Assembly (NCBI RefSeq): GCF_000092905.1
Contig: NC_014098.1
Coordinates: forward strand, 1,674,001-1,738,000
Length of the DNA: 64,000 nucleotides
From: Kyrpidia tusciae DSM 2912
Lineage (GTDB): Bacteria > Bacillota > Bacilli > Kyrpidiales > Kyrpidiaceae
Direction: 5' to 3'
Shown here: piece after piece, positions 3,215 through 15,045 of the stretch
Position numbering within the stretch: position 1 is the stretch's first letter
Layout of the letters: each line of letters begins with the position of its first letter
Made by a program: the position numbers and the translations under genes
Notes under the pieces: generated by a model
What the model was told of the DNA's origin: nothing
The model's database searches: none
What the model saw: the letters and a program-made list of their open reading frames with translations, nothing else

Positions 3215-3488
3215 TTTTTTCCAACCAAGACAATTGTGTGCTCAGGCGACCGACCTCCGCATACAATTCTTGGATCTTGTCTTCATATTCTGAACGAATT
3301 TTGGCCAGCTGTCTATTCTCAGGTTCAAACGCCCGTGGCCAGTTTTCCAAGGCGATATCCCGCCATTGGCGGAGTTGATTGACGTGAACGCCATATTCGG
3401 ACGCCAATTGCGAGAGCGTCTTTTCCTCTTTGAGAATTTCCAGGACAACTTTGGTTTTGAAGTCAGTATCATACTTTTTTCTCGGCAT
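3156..3488 (-). CDS. IS3-family transposase OrfA (helix-turn-helix protein)
   Basis: The N-terminal 90 residues are a typical HTH_Tnp_1 protein: basic start (MPRKKYDTDFKTKVVLEIL), a helix-turn-helix ending EYGVHVNQLRQW, then a leucine-rich coiled coil used for multimerisation. It recognises the element's ends. After the WLEKK motif the frame runs into about 17 non-homologous residues because the reading frame diverges from OrfB at an A8 run. Overlap with the OrfB frame is about 60 bp. It is strongly similar in layout to the N-terminal part of the transposase at 10906. Confidence 0.75.
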   Translation of the reverse strand: MPRKKYDTDFKTKVVLEILKEEKTLSQLASEYGVHVNQLRQWRDIALENWPRAFEPENRQLAKIRSEYEDKIQELYAEVGRLSTQLSWLEKKSRLAQSRGQAGSHRLPRT

Positions 3489-3761
3489 GGACCTACCTTA
3501 AAATCTCCCTTCTTGTTGTCCAGTTTCTTGAGTCCATTATACTCAGGCCCCCGGCTTTAGGTTAATAAGGCCAGTGGTAATCGCCCGTGACCGATATCAC
3601 ATGGAAGGAGACAATATGCTAATAAAACGTTGACGGAATGGTGAAGTCCAAGAAGGGTGGGGAGGGTGGAGCGGCGGTTCTCTATGAGAGGAATGAGTGC
3701 CCAAACACAACTCGCGCCGCCCATCCTCTTCCTTCTGGCGAGGCCGGCGGCGCGCCGTTCT

Positions 3762-4028
3762 TCATGTTTGGGCTGACTCGTCGACAGCATCGATTTTCTT
3801 CAACTCCGACTCCAGGCACCCGACGATGCGTCCGGTGGATAAAAAATAAACCGCATAAACGAGTCGATCCTGCAAAAACCATCCCCGGTCCACCACCACG
3901 CCGCGGTCGCTGCGCCGGGCCAGGATCGCTCCCCGGGACTCCATGGGGTACGTCCCGTCATTCCGGATATCCCTTACGCATTCCACGACGTCTTCCAAAT
4001 TGAAAACCGATCCCATGTTCCATCCCAC
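3762..4028 (-). CDS. nifZ: NifZ-domain protein
   Basis: An 88-residue protein whose core (VRDIRNDGTYPM, then GWFLQDRLVYAVYFLSTGRIVGC and a terminal acidic ExEL motif) matches the NifZ family. In diazotrophs NifZ helps mature the P-cluster of the MoFe protein. No nifHDK or other nif genes are in the window, and the gene sits between an IS3 copy and an IS66 remnant, so it may be a relic of a rearranged cluster or serve another metal-cluster role. The annotated start is GTG; an ATG four codons in (4016) is an alternative because the nearest purine-rich stretch abuts the GTG. Confidence 0.75.
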   Translation of the reverse strand: MGWNMGSVFNLEDVVECVRDIRNDGTYPMESRGAILARRSDRGVVVDRGWFLQDRLVYAVYFLSTGRIVGCLESELKKIDAVDESAQT

Positions 4029-4083
4029 TCCCTTTCACAGGACCAGCGTTTGATTGCCGTCCTCGAATGTGTTCCCACAAGAA

Positions 4084-4323
4084 CATAATCGAAAAAACTG
4101 GTTATTCGCGAACACCCCGAAAGGGGCGAAGGCGAGCGCGACGGTGTACAGCATCGTGGAGACCGCCAAGGAAAACGGGCTGAATCCCTACGAATATCTT
4201 CGGTACCTGTTTGAGCGGCTGCCCAACGTGGACGTCAACGATACCACTGTCTTGGATAGACTGTTACCGTGGTCGCCCGAGCTGCCGGAGTCTGTCCGCC
4301 GTCGGCCATCCGGCGCCACGTAA
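4084..4323 (+). pseudogene. IS66 transposase TnpC, C-terminal fragment
   Basis: The translated fragment reads NRKNWLFANTPKGAKAS, then a helical stretch containing NPYEYLRYLFERLPN, the well-conserved C-terminus of IS66-family transposases. The N-terminal zinc finger and most of the DDE domain are absent. There is no start codon of its own with a ribosome-binding site. It is non-functional. Confidence 0.75.
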
Positions 4324-4420
4324 ACACCGAACTGAAGAGCAGGCCCCATCGCTTGGATCGGGTGGGGTCTATTTGGCGTGCCCAAAAAACCTACAGCCAC
4401 CGGCCCCGTTTGACGCTTAC
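4084..4420 (+). mobile_element. Right-end remnant of an IS66-family element
   Basis: The fragment carries the last about 80 codons of an IS66 transposase (TnpC) followed by about 100 bp of non-coding end. It finishes at TTTGACGCTTAC (position 4420), whose complement GTAAGCGTCAAA is the characteristic start of IS66 inverted repeats. The rest of the element, including tnpA and tnpB, is missing. It marks the left edge of the AT-rich island that starts at about 4421. Confidence 0.7.
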
Positions 4421-4720
4421 TCAAGAGCGAACGGGTGTGGGTGTCGCTGTTCTGGGATTAACATCCATGGGACCCATTGATCCCGGCCAGTTTCTCCGCC
4501 AACCTTAGGTCAGCATGTCTCGTCAATTTTCGGTCATTATATTGTGGCAGTAACAAGATCCATCAGCAAAAGTCTTAAAACAAATCTGGCCTTGACATAA
4601 TTACCTACATCGCGCCAAATCCGTGCAGCCAAGCCGGCGATCCGAACTGCCTCAACATCTCGAACCGCCGCGCTATCTCAACCTTCATTTCAGCATCCTA
4701 AAACCCCAGATTTAGGTTGT
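4421..4720. other. Gene-free junction between IS66 remnant and AT-rich island
   Basis: No convincing coding frame is visible on either strand in these 300 bp. The base composition shifts here from GC-rich to AT-richer. A short inverted repeat (CCTAAA at 4697-4702 with TTTAGG at 4711-4716) lies just past the stop of the permease gene at 4721 and could act as a weak transcript end, but it has no T tract. Confidence 0.4.
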
Positions 4721-6031
4721 TCACGTATCTTCTGAGGTCGACTTTTGAATTCGGTGCGTATCGACATACTGCACAGACTTATACCGAACCAAGTACAGTG
4801 CTAGCCCTATTCCCATCCAACACACTCCAGTAATGAATCCCGACCGTCCAACTGTGATAAGTAAAATTACACAGATTAGTAATGCTAAAATCGGTATGAA
4901 AGGGTAAAAAGGGACTTGGAATTGCTTCAATCTTTCCTCCAGAGGTGTTTTCCTTCTGGATACAAAAAACGATATTAATGTAAATATAAAAGTCAGAATA
5001 TATAGAAATCCAGTTGCTGATACTGCAATGTTAATGGAACTAAAGGTTGTAAAGGCGATTTGAATTGCCACTCCCAAGCTAACTGCCATTATTGGAGTAC
5101 CGAAACGCGGATGAATTCTTGCGAAAAATTGTGGCAATAGCCCATTTCGTCCCATCGCAAATGCGGTGCGGGAAATTGAAACAATGAAGGCATTCGCAGT
5201 TGCCATCAACGAGATAACAATGACGATGTTGACCAGTTTTGGACCGAAAGCCCCCAAAAATTGCTGACTTGCGTAGGCCACTGGAATAGAAGACTCTCCA
5301 AGAACATCCCAAGGTACCACACCTACAGAAACAAGTAATAAACTAGAATATAGGAGGAACACAATGCATATTGAAGAAAATATGGAAAGTGGGATCGTCC
5401 GGCGAGGGTTCTTTACCTCTTCGCCAGCCGCAACTATTCCATCCCATCCAACCATTGATAAAAATCCCACTAAGGCTGCTGATACTATGCCTTCTACGCC
5501 ATTTGGGACAAATGGTCTGTATAAATATGGGTCAATATGCGGAACCCCCAAAACAAAGAATAAAACGAGAAGCAAGATCTCAACCACCACAATTAGCACT
5601 TGTATCGTTCCACTGAATTTTACACCAATTACATTAAATATACCGAGGACTAACAACAGGGCCAGTGCACTCGATAATGGAGGCATGCCTATCAACGAAT
5701 GGAGATAGTTTCCGAATCCTTTGGAAACGAAGCTACTGGCCGCCAGCCATGCCCCCCAATAACACCATCCAATAATTGTTCCTGCTAAGGAGCCAAGATT
5801 TTCGCGCACAAACTCATAGGCCCCTCCGGCACGCGGATAACGAGAAGCCAGTTCCGCGTAACAAAGCCCAAGTAATATCTCAAGCAGAGCAGCCAAAATA
5901 AACGAAATGAGAACCGCCGGACCAGCTTTACCTGCCGCCACGCCACTTAGAACAAATATCCCAGCACCGACCATCGCCCCTATACCGAGCGCCGTGGACT
6001 CTTTCCATCCTAGCCTTCTTGTAAGTTCCAA
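4721..6031 (-). CDS. APC-superfamily amino acid permease
   Basis: A 436-residue integral membrane protein with about 12 transmembrane segments. The first helix contains the broken-helix substrate motif GIGAMVGAGIFVLSG, diagnostic of APC amino acid/polyamine/cationic transporters, followed by SRYPRAGGAYEFV. It is likely to move an amino acid or a related zwitterion. It is the last gene of a five-gene minus-strand operon, 23 bp after the molybdoenzyme gene, so it may import the substrate or export the product of that pathway. Base composition is clearly AT-richer than in the core genes of the window, indicating horizontal acquisition. Confidence 0.85.
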   Translation of the reverse strand: MELTRRLGWKESTALGIGAMVGAGIFVLSGVAAGKAGPAVLISFILAALLEILLGLCYAELASRYPRAGGAYEFVRENLGSLAGTIIGWCYWGAWLAASSFVSKGFGNYLHSLIGMPPLSSALALLLVLGIFNVIGVKFSGTIQVLIVVVEILLLVLFFVLGVPHIDPYLYRPFVPNGVEGIVSAALVGFLSMVGWDGIVAAGEEVKNPRRTIPLSIFSSICIVFLLYSSLLLVSVGVVPWDVLGESSIPVAYASQQFLGAFGPKLVNIVIVISLMATANAFIVSISRTAFAMGRNGLLPQFFARIHPRFGTPIMAVSLGVAIQIAFTTFSSINIAVSATGFLYILTFIFTLISFFVSRRKTPLEERLKQFQVPFYPFIPILALLICVILLITVGRSGFITGVCWMGIGLALYLVRYKSVQYVDTHRIQKSTSEDT

Positions 6032-6054
6032 AACGATACCTCCTATGATTCACG

Positions 6055-6678
6055 TTAGAAATCCTTTATTTCGCCAGGTGTCTCAACGTACCGAAATCCC
6101 GCGAGATCTACAATCCAATATTTTTTAGGCCGAATCGTCCCGTCTATGTCGTAACCAGCTCTTATCTCCCATTCTCCGCGCTCATATTGTTCAGTTACTT
6201 CGAGGCGTGCTAATCCTTTGACGCTCTTATAACCATAAAGGCCGAAGTCAATAAGCCGCAGAGGAAATCCGTTTTCGATGGGCAGTGTTTCGCCATCAAC
6301 GGAATGGACAAGTAGTGCCCTTCTCGAAAGGGCGTCCCCTAATGGTAAAGTAGACTGGTATACACCTTTTTCTTTAGTTCCAATGCTTGTTTGTTTCAGA
6401 TAATATCTTTCAGGGCGATCAACACCGGCCATATCTATGACCGTTTGAAGAAGAATGCCCTTCCACAGCCGACGGATAGTCCAATTACAAACGCATACCA
6501 TTCGACGACTCTCCTCCACTTGTGGAAGTAAGAGCAGCTCTTTGTAAGAGAAGGTGATTGGTCTTTTTACCTTCCCCGAAACTGTTAGCTTCCACGAGGA
6601 GACGTCAATGTCATATGGTGGCCCATCCTGGTAATAACGAAGGGACGAAGGCTTTTTATCTATATTCGGAGTAGTCAT
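6055..6678 (-). CDS. Cytoplasmic sulfite-oxidase-family molybdopterin oxidoreductase
   Basis: A 207-residue single-domain protein of the oxidoreductase molybdopterin-binding family (sulfite oxidase/MsrP fold). The Mo-ligating cysteine is Cys62 in CVCNWTIRRLWKG, matching the CVxxW pattern of the family; later conserved parts include PLGDALSRRALLVHS, GFPLRLIDFGLYGYKSVKGL and a W-E-x-R C-terminal segment. There is no Tat or Sec signal and no heme or dimerisation domain, so it should act in the cytoplasm, unlike typical MsrP or sulfite dehydrogenases. It overlaps the upstream SUMF1-like gene by four bases (ATGA). Substrate unknown. Confidence 0.8.
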   Translation of the reverse strand: MTTPNIDKKPSSLRYYQDGPPYDIDVSSWKLTVSGKVKRPITFSYKELLLLPQVEESRRMVCVCNWTIRRLWKGILLQTVIDMAGVDRPERYYLKQTSIGTKEKGVYQSTLPLGDALSRRALLVHSVDGETLPIENGFPLRLIDFGLYGYKSVKGLARLEVTEQYERGEWEIRAGYDIDGTIRPKKYWIVDLAGFRYVETPGEIKDF

Positions 6679-7454
6679 ATTTCTCTATCCCCCTCAAGAT
6701 TGATCACGCAACGAAATCCGATTGTGTTATCTCGCAACGTAGGGGGATAGTAATCCCGGCTGCTACACCGCATAAATCCCTCATTAAAGAGTCCACTCCC
6801 ACCGCGAACAACATGGTCTTCTGTTTCAGAAGTAATATAGACAGGATTAATGCGCGATTTATCCCAACTGTAATTCGGGGATGCATTATCCAGGCACCAT
6901 TCAGCCACATTACCGGCCATGTCCAGACAACCGAAATACGAACGGTTCAATGGATGTGCGTATACCGAGGTAGAGCTGCGGTTCAGTTCTAATGGCTCAC
7001 AGTCTGGAGCAAAATTCGCGTATTCGAGGGTCGGGGCCTCGTTACCCCATGGGTATTGGCGATCATCTGTACCTTTACACGCGTATTCCCACTGTGCTTC
7101 TGTAGGAAGTGTTTTCCCACAAAAGGTCGCAAAGGCGAGCGCCTCCCACCAACTTACCCCGGTTACCGGCTGGTCATCTTGATTCCAATGATCGTCAAAC
7201 CAGTAGTTTGGGTGTGTCAGTCCTAATTCACAGACGAATCGCCAACCGGCCTCCGTCCAATACTTTTTTGTCTTATAGCCCCCGCTTTTAATAAATACCC
7301 GATACTGTTTATTGGTTACAGGTGTTATATCAATAGCAAAGGAGGAAAGGTTTACTTCCACCACAGGGGCTTCGTCAGGAGACACATTACTGCCACGCCT
7401 AAATGTCCCACTCGGAATAACAATCATCCCACTAGAGCTAACGCTTTTCGACAT
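6675..7454 (-). CDS. SUMF1/formylglycine-generating-enzyme-like protein lacking FGE cysteines
   Basis: A 259-residue FGE-sulfatase (C-type-lectin-like) domain: MIVIPSGTFRRGSN near the start, PVTNKQYRVF, PVTGVSWWEALAFATFCGKTLPTEAQWEYA in the middle, YPWGNE, DMAGNVAEW, then VVRGGS and IGFRC at the end. In true FGEs two cysteines follow RGGSxL; here that stretch reads RGGSGLFNEGFMRCSSRD, so neither cysteine of the copper site is in place. It is therefore unlikely to make formylglycine and could be an EgtB/NirV-type relative using the same fold differently. Start chosen at the second ATG, 6 bp after AAGGAGGGG; an ATG two codons upstream abuts the site. Confidence 0.8.
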   Translation of the reverse strand: MSKSVSSSGMIVIPSGTFRRGSNVSPDEAPVVEVNLSSFAIDITPVTNKQYRVFIKSGGYKTKKYWTEAGWRFVCELGLTHPNYWFDDHWNQDDQPVTGVSWWEALAFATFCGKTLPTEAQWEYACKGTDDRQYPWGNEAPTLEYANFAPDCEPLELNRSSTSVYAHPLNRSYFGCLDMAGNVAEWCLDNASPNYSWDKSRINPVYITSETEDHVVRGGSGLFNEGFMRCSSRDYYPPTLRDNTIGFRCVINLEGDREI

Positions 7455-7476
7455 CCACATCCCCTCCTTATTGTCG

Positions 7477-7899
7477 TTATCTCAGAAGTGGCAAGCTTCC
7501 AGTAAGTCGATTCACCTTTCTTTTGTCTCCGAAAAGCGCTATTCCGAGATACCCCAAATCGTCACTGTTATGGGAGGCAATCTTTCGAGTATAGGATTCA
7601 TAGTCAGTGGTAGTTTGAGCGGCATCTGAAAAGTCAACAACGAAAAGATCTTTGTCTCTGTCGGACAGAATCTTCTCCATTAATGTCTTTAGCGATGACT
7701 TCGTTCCACGAAGTATGGGAATCGGCATTGTTGTAATTCCGACGTGCAGATTGCCGGATTTATCCAATACATCCGGGCCAATTATACCTTCGATCGATCT
7801 TCCCAATGTCAAGCCCAATACCGCCGCAGTGTTTGCAATCAGTCCTGCGGAGAGCTCGCCGTCAATAACCATGACACACTTGAAACTTGAAATGTCCAT
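7477..7899 (-). CDS. DUF2000-family protein
   Basis: A 140-residue protein matching the DUF2000 family: KCVMVIDGELSAGLIANTAA near the N-terminus, GRSIEGIIGPDVLDKSGNLHVGI, then IPILRGTKSSLKTL. The family has a fold related to peptidyl-tRNA hydrolase 2 and no established enzymatic role that I know. A GGAGGAAG ribosome-binding site precedes the ATG. It is the second gene of the operon, between the BacA-like gene (34 bp upstream) and the SUMF1-like gene, so it probably takes part in the same pathway. Confidence 0.8.
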   Translation of the reverse strand: MDISSFKCVMVIDGELSAGLIANTAAVLGLTLGRSIEGIIGPDVLDKSGNLHVGITTMPIPILRGTKSSLKTLMEKILSDRDKDLFVVDFSDAAQTTTDYESYTRKIASHNSDDLGYLGIALFGDKRKVNRLTGSLPLLR

Positions 7900-7933
7900 T
7901 TATCTTCCTCCAAAGTTGTGTTAAATACACTTG

Positions 7934-8608
7934 CTAGTTTGGGCAGTAATCGTTATGCATAAACACGGACCACAACATGCGAATTGGCCTTAGACGAGAA
8001 ATTAATTCCACTCCATAGCGATATGTAGACGGCAAAGTAGTTACACACAAGTCTGTTTCTCCATGTACAACTTTAATGGCCGCATCGCTTGTTGAGTTCA
8101 CTTCCACAATTTCGTATTCCAAGCCATATCCATTCAGAAACCAAGGGATAAGGCTAGACGGCGCATGGTGTGTGGCGATTGTAACTGGCCTATGCTTAGG
8201 CAACTCATAGTCCCGACGCTTTGCGACGCCATACAACGGCGTCTCACATATGAACGAAAAAGACAGTCGAACCACTGAGGACATATAAAACCTGTCGATG
8301 CTTTTATAAGCGTTTGCAACAAGTAGAATTTCGGCATTAGCTCTAACAACTTGTTCAAACGCTTCTTCATAACTTGAAAACAGCAGACACTCTTCGGTAT
8401 TGCGCCGTAGCCAGGGTAAAACCCGAAGAGAATTCAACAAGTATAAAGCCGCCACCTCGCTGCTTGTGCCTTCCGGTCCCAAGGTGGCTACCCGTATTTG
8501 TGGGAAATTATAAAGTGCATTCACAAATGTCCAAAAAGATACATCTTGGTCTATTAAAATCTGAGCTGCGGAGTTCGCCAAAATCATCTCAGACGTTGAA
8601 GCAGTCAT
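7934..8608 (-). CDS. BacA-like prephenate decarboxylase homologue
   Basis: A 224-residue protein with the prephenate-dehydratase/periplasmic-binding fold. VATLGPEGTSSEVAA near residue 40 matches the PheA/BacA start motif. Further segments resemble Bacillus BacA as I recall it: DRFYMSS, the ICETPLYGVAKRRDYE stretch, EVNSTSDAAIKVVHGETDL and RPIRMLWSVF. BacA decarboxylates prephenate without aromatising it, the first step of bacilysin synthesis. The rest of the bac pathway (cupin isomerases, reductase, ligase) is not here, so only the reaction type is suggested. It is first in the island operon, preceded by AAGGAG 10 bp before the ATG. A generic PBP-fold role is the alternative. Confidence 0.65.
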   Translation of the reverse strand: MTASTSEMILANSAAQILIDQDVSFWTFVNALYNFPQIRVATLGPEGTSSEVAALYLLNSLRVLPWLRRNTEECLLFSSYEEAFEQVVRANAEILLVANAYKSIDRFYMSSVVRLSFSFICETPLYGVAKRRDYELPKHRPVTIATHHAPSSLIPWFLNGYGLEYEIVEVNSTSDAAIKVVHGETDLCVTTLPSTYRYGVELISRLRPIRMLWSVFMHNDYCPN

Positions 8609-10850: not shown

Positions 10851-11629
10851 CGTATAGTGGTCCCAGGAAACTGAACAAGCGAAAGGGGGCTGTTTAAGCT
10901 ACACTATGGGCATGCGAAAACATTACTCGGCTTCATTCAAAGCGCAGGTCGTTCTGGAACTTCTTAGGGAAGAGAAGACCATTGCACAATTGGCCTCGGA
11001 GTACGGGGTTCATCCAACCATGCTGCACCGGTGGAAGAACACGGCTGTGGATAACCTGTCCAGCCTGTTTGAGGATGTGGATAAAAAGAACACGACGGCC
11101 ATGAAGAGAGAACATGAAAAGGAGGTCGAGGAACTTTATTCCAAAATCGGCCGTCTTACCACTCAAGTCGAGTGGCTCAAAAAAAATCTGGCCTCAACCC
11201 GGACTCGTGAGGAACGGATAGAGATGATCGAACGGGACCATCCCGAGATTCCGTTGAGTAAACAGGCTGAACTGCTGAGTCTCAATCGCACCAGCCTGTA
11301 TTACAAACCTGTGGATAAGCCAGAGGAGGAGGTGCGCCTCAAGCACCGGATCGACGAGATATACACAGATCACCCGGCGTATGGGTCTCGACGGATGACT
11401 GCCGTCCTACGCCGTGAGGGGTGGGATGTCAATCGGAAACGTGTACAACGCTGCATGCGAGAGATGGAAATTGCAGGAGTATGCCCTGGGCCGAACCTCA
11501 GCAAACGGAATGTTCAGCATCAAGTCTATCCGTATCTGCTGCGCAACGTTCGGGCCAGTCACAACAACCATGTATGGGGGATTGATATCACCTATATTCG
11601 GCTCCAAAAAGGCTGGATGTACCTGGTGG
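10851..11629 (+). mobile_element. IS3-family insertion sequence, copy B (3'-truncated)
   Basis: The upstream end (GTATAGTGG at 10852-10860 and the following AAACTGAACAAG) corresponds to the start of copy A. The element runs to 11629, where the coding sequence is replaced by the end of an IS21-family element. Its own right end is missing, so it cannot move by itself. Confidence 0.65.
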
Positions 11630-11646
11630 TGTCAATAGCGGATTAA
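10906..11646 (+). pseudogene. IS3-family transposase, OrfA-OrfB in one frame, C-terminally truncated
   Basis: A single 246-codon frame covers what copy A splits in two: an N-terminal helix-turn-helix (EYGVHPTMLHRW), a coiled coil, WLKKNLAS at the A8 tract where copy A shifts frame, then the HTH_21 linker and the start of the integrase core (HVWGIDITYI with the first catalytic Asp). The second Asp and the Glu are missing because the gene is cut at the IS21 end near 11630; the last codons (VSIAD) come from that end. It cannot be an active transposase. Confidence 0.8.
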
Positions 11647-12180
11647 AACTCCCCAAAAAAATCGTGCTCGATTCCCCACAAATAGCGGATTCAGTTCCCC
11701 AAAATCATCGCGCATCATTCCCCAGACATATGTTCGGTTTACGCGGTCCCCTCCTCCTTCAGCGCATGTGTCACCCCTGCGCGCAGCTTGTCCTTCATCC
11801 GGTAGCTGTTGCCGCGGATGTTGATGGTGGTGGCGTGGTGGAGGAGCCGGTCGAGCAAGGCAGAGGCCAGCACCTGGTCACCGAAGAGTGTCCCCCAGTT
11901 GGTGAAGCTGATGTTGGACGTGATGATCAGGGAGCCATGCTCGTAGCGCTCCGACACGAGCCGGAAGAAGTTCGCGGCGTCCAAGGCGTCAAGCGGCAAG
12001 TAGCCGACTTCGTCGCAGATCAGCAGCTTCGGCTGGGTGTAGATGCGCAGGCGCTTGTCCAGCCGTCCCTCTTGGTACGCCCGTCGCAAGTCGGCGACCA
12101 GCTTCTGCATGGTCACGAAGTAGACGCTCATGCGCTGTCGAATCGCCTCCATGCCCAGGGCCACCGCAAGGTGGGTCTTG
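11630..12180 (-). mobile_element. IS21-family element fragment A (end plus 3' part of istB)
   Basis: The fragment begins at TGTCAATAGCGG (11630) and contains two subterminal repeats that share AATAGCGGATT (11634-11644 and 11681-11691), each followed by CCCCAAAA and an ATCG-containing tail. Such repeated transposase-binding sites are typical of IS21 ends. The istB gene follows on the minus strand and breaks off at 12180 inside the Walker A codons. istA and the other end are missing. Confidence 0.75.
11739..12180 (-). pseudogene. istB: IS21 helper ATPase IstB, N-terminally truncated (copy A)
   Basis: The remaining 147 codons start at GKTHLAVALG, the second half of the Walker A motif, and contain the Walker B KLLICDEVGYLPLD, the RYEHGSLIITSN sensor segment and the C-terminal NSYRMKDKLRAG. 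About 100 N-terminal residues of a normal IstB (about 250 residues) are replaced by a palindromic sequence at 12181-12206. IstB is the AAA+ ATPase that assists the IS21 transposase; this copy is inactive. Confidence 0.8.
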
Positions 12181-12206
12181 CCCTTATGTTGTTCTCTACA
12201 TAAGGG
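12181..12206. repeat. Left palindromic boundary repeat
   Basis: Perfect 9-bp arms, CCCTTATGT (12181-12189) and ACATAAGGG (12198-12206), flank the 8-bp centre TGTTCTCT. Its last 23 bp (12184-12206) recur in the same orientation at 14605-14627. The arm-spacer-arm layout is like a tyrosine recombinase core site. It fuses directly to truncated istB copy A. Confidence 0.75.
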
Positions 12207-12346
12207 CAATTGGACTAAACCGCTAGCGCGGTGGAAAAGACCCCTCCCTCCGTCACCCTGTCTGATACAAGTTTGTTTGGACTCTTTACGTAACTCTCGC
12301 TATCCTATTCATGCATCCCCATGCAACAATAGGAGGAGAGTGCCCT

Positions 12347-13228
12347 ATGGGAGCCCATCAGCACGTGCTTCAGCAGATGACGGAGGACCTTCGACTGCGA
12401 GGATTGTCACCGAACACCGTCGACGTCTATACCCGTGCCGCCCGGATCTTTCTCGAGTTTTGCAAACGTCCGGTGGATCAACTGGATGTCCAAGATGCCC
12501 GTCGGTTTCTGTTGTTCCTCATCTGCGAGAAAAAGCGCTCTGCGGCGACGGTCAACGTCTACAACGCGGCGGTGCGGTTTCTTTTTGCAGTCACTTTGAA
12601 TCGTACCTTTAATCCTTTGCAAATTCCACGCCAGAAAATGCCGAAAACCCTCCCGCAGGTGTTGAGCCGCCCAGAGATCGCATCCATTCTGGAGCATTGC
12701 CACAACCTAAAGCACAAGGCGCTGTTTGCTTTGATCTACGGTTCTGGATTGCGCGTGAGCGAAGCGGCCGCCATCAAAACCCAACACATCGATTCCCGCA
12801 CCATGCGGGTGTTTGTCCAAGGAGGCAAGGGAGCCAAGGACCGGTACACCGTGCTTTCCCACACCGCTCTGCAACTGTTGCGGGAGTACTGGAAAGCGTA
12901 TCGTCCGACCCATCCGGAAGGCTGGCTGTTCCTGGGCACGTATTCGCTGGCTCACATCACCTCAGCGGCCATATCCCGTGCCTTTGGCGATGCGCTGAAG
13001 CGAGCGCAAATCTCCAAAGAGGTCTCGATCCACTCCTTGCGCCATTCGTTTGCGACCCATTTGTTGGAGGATGGAGTTTCCCTGCTGCAAATCAAAGAAT
13101 TGCTCGGACATGCCAGCATCCGTTCCACGACGGTGTATTTGCACTTGGCAAATGTCACCTCTGGGATGCTTAGTCCACTTGATCGCCCGCCATCCACGGA
13201 TAAAGGGAACATCAGTGCCCATGCCTGA
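12347..13228 (+). CDS. Tyrosine recombinase (XerC/D-like integrase)
   Basis: A 293-residue phage-integrase-family protein. The N-terminal SAM-like core-binding domain spans about residues 5-85. The catalytic residues are present: Arg in YGSGLRVSEAA, Lys after the GGKGAKDR strand, the box SIHSLRHSFATHL, then GHASIRSTTVYLH with the nucleophilic Tyr. It should cut and rejoin DNA at a short core site, possibly the palindrome flanking the module. Start chosen at the ATG preceded by AGGAGGAG; an in-frame ATG 12 codons upstream lacks a good site. Its stop overlaps the next gene's start by 8 bp. Confidence 0.85.
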   Translation: MGAHQHVLQQMTEDLRLRGLSPNTVDVYTRAARIFLEFCKRPVDQLDVQDARRFLLFLICEKKRSAATVNVYNAAVRFLFAVTLNRTFNPLQIPRQKMPKTLPQVLSRPEIASILEHCHNLKHKALFALIYGSGLRVSEAAAIKTQHIDSRTMRVFVQGGKGAKDRYTVLSHTALQLLREYWKAYRPTHPEGWLFLGTYSLAHITSAAISRAFGDALKRAQISKEVSIHSLRHSFATHLLEDGVSLLQIKELLGHASIRSTTVYLHLANVTSGMLSPLDRPPSTDKGNISAHA

Positions 13229-14348
13229 ACTCCAAGACATCTTCGCCCAGTATGCTGACTCCTACGCAAAGAGGCACCCGCTCTCCCTCGAACAGGGGAA
13301 AGTGGTCCGGGCCATCCAGAACTGCCGCACCGCCGCCTTGGGAGGACATGTGGATGAGTGTGACCATTGCGGATACACGCATATCTCCTACAATTCCTGC
13401 CGCAACCGTCACTGTCCCAAATGTCAAACCCTGACCAAGGAACGCTGGATCCAAGCCCAGAAGGCGAACTTGCTGCAGGTCGGGTACTTTCATGTTGTGT
13501 TCACCCTTCCGGAGGAGCTGAATCCCGTTGCCTACCAGAACCCCGAGGTGGTGTACAACCTCTTGTTCAAGGCCGCTTCGGAAACCCTAACGGAGTTAGC
13601 GGCGGACCGCACCTATTTAGGGGCGCAGATCGGTTTTACGGCCGTCCTGCATACCTGGGGGCAGAACCTCATGCTCCACCCGCACCTGCATTGTATTGTT
13701 CCGGGAGGCGGGCTGACGACAGACGGACGCTGGGTGAACTCCCGCAAGAAGTTCTTCCTCCCCATCAAGGTGCTCTCGCGTAAATTTCGGGGCAAGTTTC
13801 TGTTCCATCTCAAGCGTGCAACGCTTGCACTCCATGGTTCCTTGGAGCCCCTGCGGGACGGGGACCGCTTTCGGGAATGGATGTCCTCCCTCTACCAGAA
13901 GGAATGGGTGGTCTATTGCAAGCCGCCGTTTAAGACGCCGGCTCATGTGGTGGAGTATCTCGGACGCTACACGCATCGGGTGGCGATTTCCAATCAGCGG
14001 ATTCTTCGCGCGGAAGACGGGAAAGTCACCTTCCGGTGGCGGGACTACCGGGATGGAAATCGGCAAAAAGAGATGACATTGACGGCTGAAGAGTTCATCC
14101 GCAGGTTCTTGATGCATGTCTTACCCAAGGGGTTTACGAGAATTCGGCACTACGGATTGCTCAGTCCCAGAAACCGAAAGACGAAGCTGAGCCTTTGCCG
14201 CAGGTTAACGAAGAGCAACTGCATGCCGGTTCCCAAACTGTCTGCGGTTGAACTGTTTATCCAGTTGACGGGCAAGGATTTCACAGTGTGTCCCCGTTGC
14301 GGGGTGGGTCATCTGACGCGGGCGGCTCCCATCCTCAAAACTGCATAG
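13221..14348 (+). CDS. IS91-family HUH transposase
   Basis: A 375-residue Y2/HUH rolling-circle transposase. The N-terminal zinc-binding domain reads CDHCGYTHISYNSCRNRHCPKC with its cysteines intact; the HUH motif is HPHLHCIVPGGG near residue 150, and the tyrosine region is VEYLGRYTHRVAISNQRI near residue 240. A further cysteine pair lies near the C-terminus (CPRCGVGHL). It would nick and transfer one DNA strand during IS91-type transposition. The ATG at 13221 overlaps the recombinase stop (ATGCCTGA), indicating coupled translation. It appears complete. Confidence 0.85.
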   Translation: MPELQDIFAQYADSYAKRHPLSLEQGKVVRAIQNCRTAALGGHVDECDHCGYTHISYNSCRNRHCPKCQTLTKERWIQAQKANLLQVGYFHVVFTLPEELNPVAYQNPEVVYNLLFKAASETLTELAADRTYLGAQIGFTAVLHTWGQNLMLHPHLHCIVPGGGLTTDGRWVNSRKKFFLPIKVLSRKFRGKFLFHLKRATLALHGSLEPLRDGDRFREWMSSLYQKEWVVYCKPPFKTPAHVVEYLGRYTHRVAISNQRILRAEDGKVTFRWRDYRDGNRQKEMTLTAEEFIRRFLMHVLPKGFTRIRHYGLLSPRNRKTKLSLCRRLTKSNCMPVPKLSAVELFIQLTGKDFTVCPRCGVGHLTRAAPILKTA

Positions 14349-14531
14349 CGGTGGATGATCAGCCCGTGGAATGGGGAGGGGGAAAGTATGCGCACAGACG
14401 GAACAACAACGGTATCTGCGCCCATGCAATTCCAGGGTTTTGCCATGAAACCACTTGCAGGACATACTTTCGCGAGGAATGGCGAAGATTGATTCCCCAT
14501 AGCAGCTAACGACCGCGGTTCAGTCCAAGCA

Positions 14532-14595
14532 AAATATGCGAAGTGGCGCTCAGTCTACAGACGAGCGCCACTTTTTACACCGACTTCGCATATTT
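14532..14595. repeat. Nested inverted repeat at the 3' end of the IS91 module
   Basis: Outer arms AAATATGCGAAGT (14532-14544) and ACTTCGCATATTT (14583-14595) pair perfectly over 13 bp. Inner arms GTGGCGCTC (14543-14551) and GAGCGCCAC (14563-14571) pair over 9 bp, overlapping the outer left arm by 2 bp. Such subterminal hairpins are found at the origin or terminus of HUH elements. It lies 10 bp from the right boundary repeat. Confidence 0.7.
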
Positions 14596-14604
14596 CACTA
14601 TTCA

Positions 14605-14627
14605 TTATGTTGTTCTCTACATAAGGG
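14605..14627. repeat. Right boundary repeat of the recombinase/IS91 module
   Basis: This 23-bp sequence is identical to 12184-12206 and in the same orientation (TTATGT, 8-bp centre, ACATAAGGG). It is joined on its right side to a second, different istB fragment. Confidence 0.75.
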
Positions 14628-15045
14628 TAAAACGCACTTAGCGATTGCCCTTGGCGTCAAAGCGTGCACGGCCAGACTCCGGGTCGCGTTTTTCACCGCC
14701 TCTGAACTGGCGGATCTCTTGTATGCCAGTTTGGCGGATCGTTCCACGCCCCAAAAGCTGGCGTCGCTGAGCCGCTACCACCTGCTGATCATCGACGAGT
14801 TGGGCTACATGCCCATGGACAAGCAACGGGCGAACCTCTTTTTCCAGCTCGTCAGCAAGCGCTATGAGACGGGATCGATCATCCTGACGACCAACATGCC
14901 TTTTGACGAGTGGGACAAGGTGTTTGGCGATACCATTGCTTCTGCCGCCATCATTGATCGTCTGGTGCATCACAGTCACATTTTTCACATTCAGGGTCAC
15001 AGTTACCGGATGAAGGACAAGCTCAAGGCCGATGCCTCCGCCTGA
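14623..15045 (+). pseudogene. istB: IS21 helper ATPase IstB, N-terminally truncated (copy B)
   Basis: About 140 codons remain, beginning at GKTHLAIALGVKA (second half of Walker A) and including Walker B YHLLIIDELGYMPMD, RYETGSIILTTN and the C-terminal HSYRMKDKLKA. The upstream codons come from the boundary repeat, so the break is at the same Walker A codons as in copy A. It is not functional. Confidence 0.8.

Follow-up and report, generated by a model that had tools for sequence, protein, structure and literature searches.

Palindromes flanking an IS91-family element in Kyrpidia tusciae match the attachment ends of RIT elements inserted at istB Walker A codons

RIT (recombinase-in-trio) elements carry, on ~3.5 kb, the tyrosine recombinase genes A, B and C, adjacent to one another in this order and overlapping (PMC3414803; PMC2864759). 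Their published ends are 28–29 bp inverted repeats with an overlapping palindrome (PMC3414803) or 34-bp repeats (PMC10214605), and these repeats have been called hard to interpret (PMC3414803). Known copies interrupt IS66 tnpA, radC of ICE-like islands and a Tn6049-related transposase gene (PMC2864759; PMC3414803); target specificity, empty sites and movement are given as untested (PMC10214605). Tn554 and the strand-biased circularizing elements (SEs) also use several tyrosine recombinases, and they take 6 bp of the donor flank along when they move to another site (PMC10214605). No account of motif targeting, or of a rule for the side on which the palindrome lies, was found in the RIT literature covered; Ricker et al. 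2013 lies outside this coverage and novelty is provisional.

The window analysed is a 64,000-bp stretch of Kyrpidia tusciae DSM 2912 (NC_014098.1, positions 1,674,001 to 1,738,000). It contains two exact, same-orientation copies of the 23-mer TTATGTTGTTCTCTACATAAGGG (12184–12206 and 14605–14627) on either side of a two-gene module, as an earlier note on this DNA had described; such a pair is expected 0 times (100 dinucleotide shuffles). The 23-mer has no match in the viral contigs scanned, and an 18-mer of the palindrome also matches Tsukamurella and Phocaeicola (L005, L006), which may be chance. The 8-bp centre given in the earlier note is correct but its 9-bp arms are not: the arms are 10 bp in the left copy (GCCCTTATGT-TGTTCTCT-ACATAAGGGC) and only 6 bp in the right (TTATGT/ACATAA), which is a partial palindrome because the bases before TTATGT belong to the IS91-family element. 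The left 20-bp core, TTATGT-TGTTCTCT-ACATAA (12184–12203), lies between the hexamers TTGCCC (12178–12183; GGGCAA on the istB1 strand) on the istB1 side and GGGCAA (12204–12209) on the inner side. The right core, TTATGTTGTTCTCTACATAA (14605–14624), is followed by the junction hexamer GGGTAA (14625–14630).

Outside these hexamers are the C-terminal halves of two istB genes, which encode IS21-family helper ATPases. The istB1 half (11742–12177, minus strand) starts at the Walker A lysine codon and the istB2 half (14631–15045, plus strand) is cut at the same Walker A codons; both enter the Pfam IstB_IS21 profile (5e-54 and 9e-48, respectively) at position 104, which corresponds to GKTHLA. They share 46% protein identity, so that two diverged istB genes on opposite strands are indeed joined at the same motif. 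The istB1 half has 98% DNA identity to an intact istB1 of a same-genus genome (L121), and intact istB1 as well as nine intact istB2 copies (the latter in genome G004) are present in the congener; intact istB copies are without the palindrome. The nine copies in G004 encode an identical protein, and the K. tusciae genome has only broken or partial istB2. Intact congener istB2 reads CAGGGGTTGGAAAAACGCAC, with TGGAAA at the six bases corresponding to GGGTAA, and because of this difference the GGGTAA hexamer was probably carried in by an inserting element. Pfam and NCBIfam matches support IS21 membership of both genes, istB adjoins istA, and the congener IS21 match (99%) runs past the istB1 N-terminal half into the istA region of a second K. 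tusciae locus (L014). At the left of istB1 (within 10906–11735) an IS3-type transposase open reading frame stops at ~11646, beside three imperfect 23-bp repeats (11650–11730) that resemble IS21 terminal repeats; the IS21 carrying istB1 probably inserted into this IS3.

The same 18-mer is found in Alicyclobacillus macrosporangiidus beside an istB Walker A motif with no IS91. The full 9.2-kb contig (L030) contains complete, overlapping ritA, ritB and ritC genes inside an istB that is 88% identical to istB1. Its N-half junction is ...GGGGGTGGGCAA|TTATGGGG, extending further into the RIT as ...GGGGGTGGGCAA|TTATGGGGAGCTGCAGG..., and its C-half junction is CATAATTGCCC-TTATGTTGTTCTCTACATAA-GGGTAA-GACCCACC, with the palindrome preceded by ...CCTGCAGCTCCCCATAATTGCCC. 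The RIT has a terminal inverted repeat of 28 exactly matching bases, and the palindrome lies beyond the repeat on one side. The left core of the window is the same sequence as at this RIT end, and the inner GGGCAA continues as TTATGGGGAGCTGCAGG into the RIT in L030 and into IS91 in the window. Judged from these sequence matches, the window palindromes are attachment ends of RIT elements and not of the IS91 module, and the arm-centre-arm layout, which the earlier note likened to a tyrosine recombinase core, is indeed an attachment site of such recombinases. One of the points against the RIT explanation is that the 8-bp centre of the palindrome is inverted relative to ritA between L030 and the K. 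tusciae genome (window left core). The centre was ruled out as a predictor of RIT orientation, since ritA is adjacent in L014 despite a centre opposite to that of L030. An origin of the palindrome in an IS200/IS605-type hairpin or a group II intron 3′ end was dropped once L030 showed the RIT.

The L030 element resembles published RITs in its gene trio, ~3.5 kb length, terminal inverted repeats (~28–36 bp in the family), overlapping palindrome and mobile-gene target. Two core-binding domains are a mark of RitA in the family; RitA here has 419 residues with one recognised SAM-like domain (~123–201), and an N-terminal region of ~110 residues without an assigned domain. In L030 ritC is the last gene before the terminal repeat, with none for TnpC or Srap after it.

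Between the palindromes is an ordinary IS91-family element of 2395 bp (12210–14604, plus strand; TTGGACTAAACC...CTATTCA), a family assignment based on its transposase; it contains neither palindrome. A tyrosine recombinase gene (12311–13228, plus strand; Pfam Phage_integrase, 2e-35) overlaps the transposase gene (13221–14348, plus strand; NCBIfam NF033538, 494 bits), whose product has the Y2_Tnp and zinc-binding Zn_Tnp_IS91 domains (PF04986, PF14319). The right end of classical IS91 adjoins GTTC or CTTG. The module is similar to that family in its Y2 transposase with zinc-binding domain and in the lack of target duplication, but differs by the upstream tyrosine recombinase gene and by insertion 5′ of TTAT (at four junctions; TTAA at one, L010). 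Three more traces of the element are present in the K. tusciae genome: L008 is full-length, L009 is truncated at its 5′ end, and L010 retains only 32 bp of the right end. L008 is not within istB and its flanks are unrelated; its right end reads CTATTCA then TTAT. In another genome, a relative (L135) stops at this base as well, again with TTAT beside it; the span of the element is set by the agreement of the right ends of L008, L135 and L010. In L010 (~2001–2032) the last 32 bp of IS91 abut an apparent group II intron 3′ end with a reverse transcriptase gene, and the IS91 end there holds a terminator-like hairpin that is a plausible class C intron target.

The missing half of istB1 is located 1.1 Mb away in the same genome. 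With the intact congener istB1 (L121) as query, the N-half has a single match, at 2.824 Mb, and the genome contains one istB1 N-half and one istB1 C-half. The order at 2.815–2.824 Mb is IS91...CTATTCA|TTATGGGGAGC-RIT-CCCCATAA-TTGCCC-istB1-N-istA; the istB1 N-half is joined to the RIT at TTGCCC, and the far RIT end, TTATGGGG, abuts the right end of IS91 (L009/L014). This junction is the exact complement of the left junction of the window, where the order is istB1-C-TTGCCC-palindrome-GGGCAA|IS91; at the right side of the window it is IS91|TTATGTTGTTCTCTACATAA-GGGTAA-istB2-C. Joined to each other, the outer flanks at the two loci (window and L009) give GGGCAATTATGGGG, which is identical to the RIT end of L030, where nothing interrupts it; IS91 therefore entered the RIT end in istB1 without duplication, at a point exactly between GGGCAA and TTATGGGG, the two sides being separated later. 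Both IS91 copies now have the same orientation, so one simple inversion is insufficient and at least two steps are needed. In L014 ritA and ritB are intact and ritC is interrupted; within coordinates 3215–8132 ritC is split by an IS110-like element, with another transposase region between the ritC fragments and the RIT end.

Searches for RitA covered 399 genomes of the class, 13 of them positive, and those for RitC covered 398 sampled genomes of the phylum, 28 of them positive; RitC is also matched by 535 plasmid records. The survey set comprises 28 RIT copies, related ones included, in which both ends were read and which are 3454–3512 bp long. In most copies, when the element is taken out and the flanks are joined with a 6-bp overlap, the reading frame is open again across a conserved motif. 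These motifs are the IstB Walker A (GVG^KTH) and Walker B (LD^DE(V/W)GY), a DDE transposase motif (K^GKxE), the group II intron reverse transcriptase motif PQ^GG, and an amidoligase motif (CGIH^VHVD, hand-joined). Pfam matches among ten joined flanks are to IstB, RVT_1, rve/Mu-type DDE integrase, IS66 Tnp and Amidoligase_2, with no match for one DDE-type flank. Automatic joining at exactly 6 bp gave no clean frame for L030 (upstream frameshift), L033, L104 and L091/L092; the last pair was read by eye, and the hand-joined L091 peptide gives the Amidoligase_2 match. The general rule suggested by these joins is insertion with a 6-bp overlap into conserved-motif DNA, mostly of genes for mobile-element proteins. 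A search of the 399 genomes with the palindrome pattern alone matches the window, L030, a further RIT insertion in istB Walker A DNA (L141) and, in one genome, two sites that look unrelated. RIT ends with similar palindromes occur in other phyla (Cupriavidus, E. coli, Rhodococcus and Ruminococcus plasmids), and four other plasmid RITs are less clear. Ends of some RITs (L126 in an E. coli plasmid, L041, L102) apparently lie in DNA for conserved motifs of other genes: a DNA methyltransferase-like VLDP motif, and tyrosine recombinases near the RHT motif.

A single palindrome is present in 25 copies, one at each end in two (L031, L100) and none in one (L098). Its side is constant within each target class in 25/25 single-palindrome copies, a count that includes related copies and overstates independence: it lies on the C side in Walker A (6), DDE (9) and amidoligase (2) targets, and on the N side in reverse transcriptase (5) and Walker B (3) targets. 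The RIT end at the palindrome is that of RitA in 17/25 and of RitC in 8/25, which rules out the palindrome as a mark of the RitA end, and G599, G486, G715 and G626 each contain near-identical RITs facing both ways. Inner and outer hexamers match at 146/174 bases (null mean 60, maximum 91; 20,000 shuffles), again with related copies counted and with the hexamers of L031 and L033 misregistered by 1–2 bp in the table. The hexamer beside the target of one copy recurs inside another copy in G599 (L089/L090) and G626 (L114/L115), the pattern that carriage of 6 bp by the element would give.

The copies with two palindromes or none have rearranged flanks. L031 is organized as istB-C-palindrome-RIT-palindrome-istB′-C with an intact RIT, and L100 has the same double arrangement with two diverged IS66 transposase copies. 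L098 has the reciprocal N-RIT-N arrangement and comes from a fragmented assembly in which it could be misjoined. All three are apparent products of recombination between RIT insertions; RIT ends then serve as points at which unrelated host genes recombine, by homologous or site-specific exchange, the two being indistinguishable here. In L110, a RIT in IstB Walker B DNA, the N-half is identical to that of L109 and the IstB C-half is different, giving a chimeric target that is either a real recombinant or an assembly join in a fragmented assembly.

Several explanations for the window were considered. The earlier note proposed that the module itself targets Walker A DNA, and it does lie between both palindromes and carry a tyrosine recombinase. 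This is very improbable, and both observations that the note had named as refuting it were made: copies of the module (L008, L010) lie elsewhere than in istB, their flanks unrelated and free of the palindrome, the L135 relative ends at the same base beside TTAT, and palindromes occur at istB without IS91 (L007/L030, L141); targeting of IstB Walker A DNA stands, with the RIT in place of the module as the targeting element. Least credible of all is an unrelated repeat (a terminator, a REP-like sequence or a part of IS21) near Walker A by coincidence: the palindrome is short and hairpin-forming, but it is missing from intact istB copies, matches RIT ends base for base in dozens of elements, and has hexamers that fit the targets. 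All parts of the locus are repeated elements (IS21, RIT, IS91), as a misassembled join would have it, but there is very little likelihood of this in a genome that is one 3.38 Mb contig with each istB1 half present once and consistent, base-exact junctions.

The order of events is a closer question. The double istB join could have formed first (istB1-C-palindrome-RIT-palindrome-istB2-C), through recombination of two opposed RIT insertions or use of both cores, with IS91 later inserting and deleting the RIT body. L031 and L100 show this arrangement with an intact RIT, L098 shows its reciprocal, and the window and L031 alike have their 8-bp centres in direct repeat. This order is nevertheless unlikely, given that a RIT remains joined to the istB1 N-half and ends in IS91 at the exactly complementary base; GGGCAA|IS91 in the window against IS91|TTATGGGG at the istB1 N-half points to IS91 insertion before the exchange. 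The preferred reading, to which we give a probability of roughly 0.87, is that two RITs entered the Walker A codons of istB1 and istB2 independently and that an IS91 exchange later fused the broken genes. An IS91-family element with a TTAT target inserted between GGGCAA and TTATGGGG of the RIT in istB1, and another copy occupies TTATGTTG of the RIT end in istB2. Exchange between the two copies, the most likely origin of the window join, would leave istB1-C-palindrome-IS91-palindrome-istB2-C in the window and IS91-RIT-istB1-N-istA 1.1 Mb away, and the complementary IS91 junctions agree with the other proposal of the earlier note, two insertions joined through the module. The evidence for the second insertion is its palindrome end, since the window contains no RIT body and the istB2 N-half was not found in the K. 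tusciae genome in a search without a positive control.

For RIT insertion itself, a circular element is probable on sequence grounds, with a symmetric junction of two inverted cores, CCCCATAA-hexamer-TTATGT-8 bp-ACATAA-hexamer-TTATGGGG. We infer this symmetry because the palindrome side is fixed per motif whichever way the RIT faces. Either core would recombine with target DNA resembling its hexamer (e.g. GGGCAA within GGT-GGGCAA-GACC), giving istB-N-hexamer-RIT-hexamer-20-bp palindrome-hexamer-istB-C; the unused core would remain as the palindrome and, with either core usable, would come to lie on a constant side of the target motif. A 6-bp stretch could pass from site to site with the RIT. 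Relative to published RITs, the new features are the reading of the palindrome as a two-core att junction, the 6-bp overlap, the fixed side and the motif-DNA target.

The hexamer traces (G599, G626; GGGTAA in the window for native TGGAAA) resemble the 6-bp carriage of Tn554 and the SEs. Those elements also use Srap or TnpC, whereas RITs encode three catalytic recombinases and differ further by long inverted repeats whose symmetry lets the element face either way; by analogy RITs would work like the Tn554/SE family, but they are not filed there. Inteins and homing introns insert at DNA for invariant catalytic motifs (e.g. the P-loop). RITs are similar in having catalytic-motif DNA as target but differ in that there is no splicing and the host mobile gene is destroyed. 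It is rather probable, though well short of the confidence placed in the reading of the window, that RITs are motif-homing hyperparasites, each lineage recognising DNA for a conserved catalytic motif, mostly one in proteins of other mobile elements, inserting in either orientation through a two-core junction, leaving the palindrome on a fixed side and carrying 6 bp along. RITs are widespread, and the side rule, 6-bp overlap and exchanged hexamers constitute a concrete att model. Targeting of motif DNA would account for RIT insertions in other mobile elements and for cuts at the same codons of diverged transposon genes; if it is true, RIT insertion would inactivate the host transposon, and shared RIT ends would fuse unrelated transposon genes.
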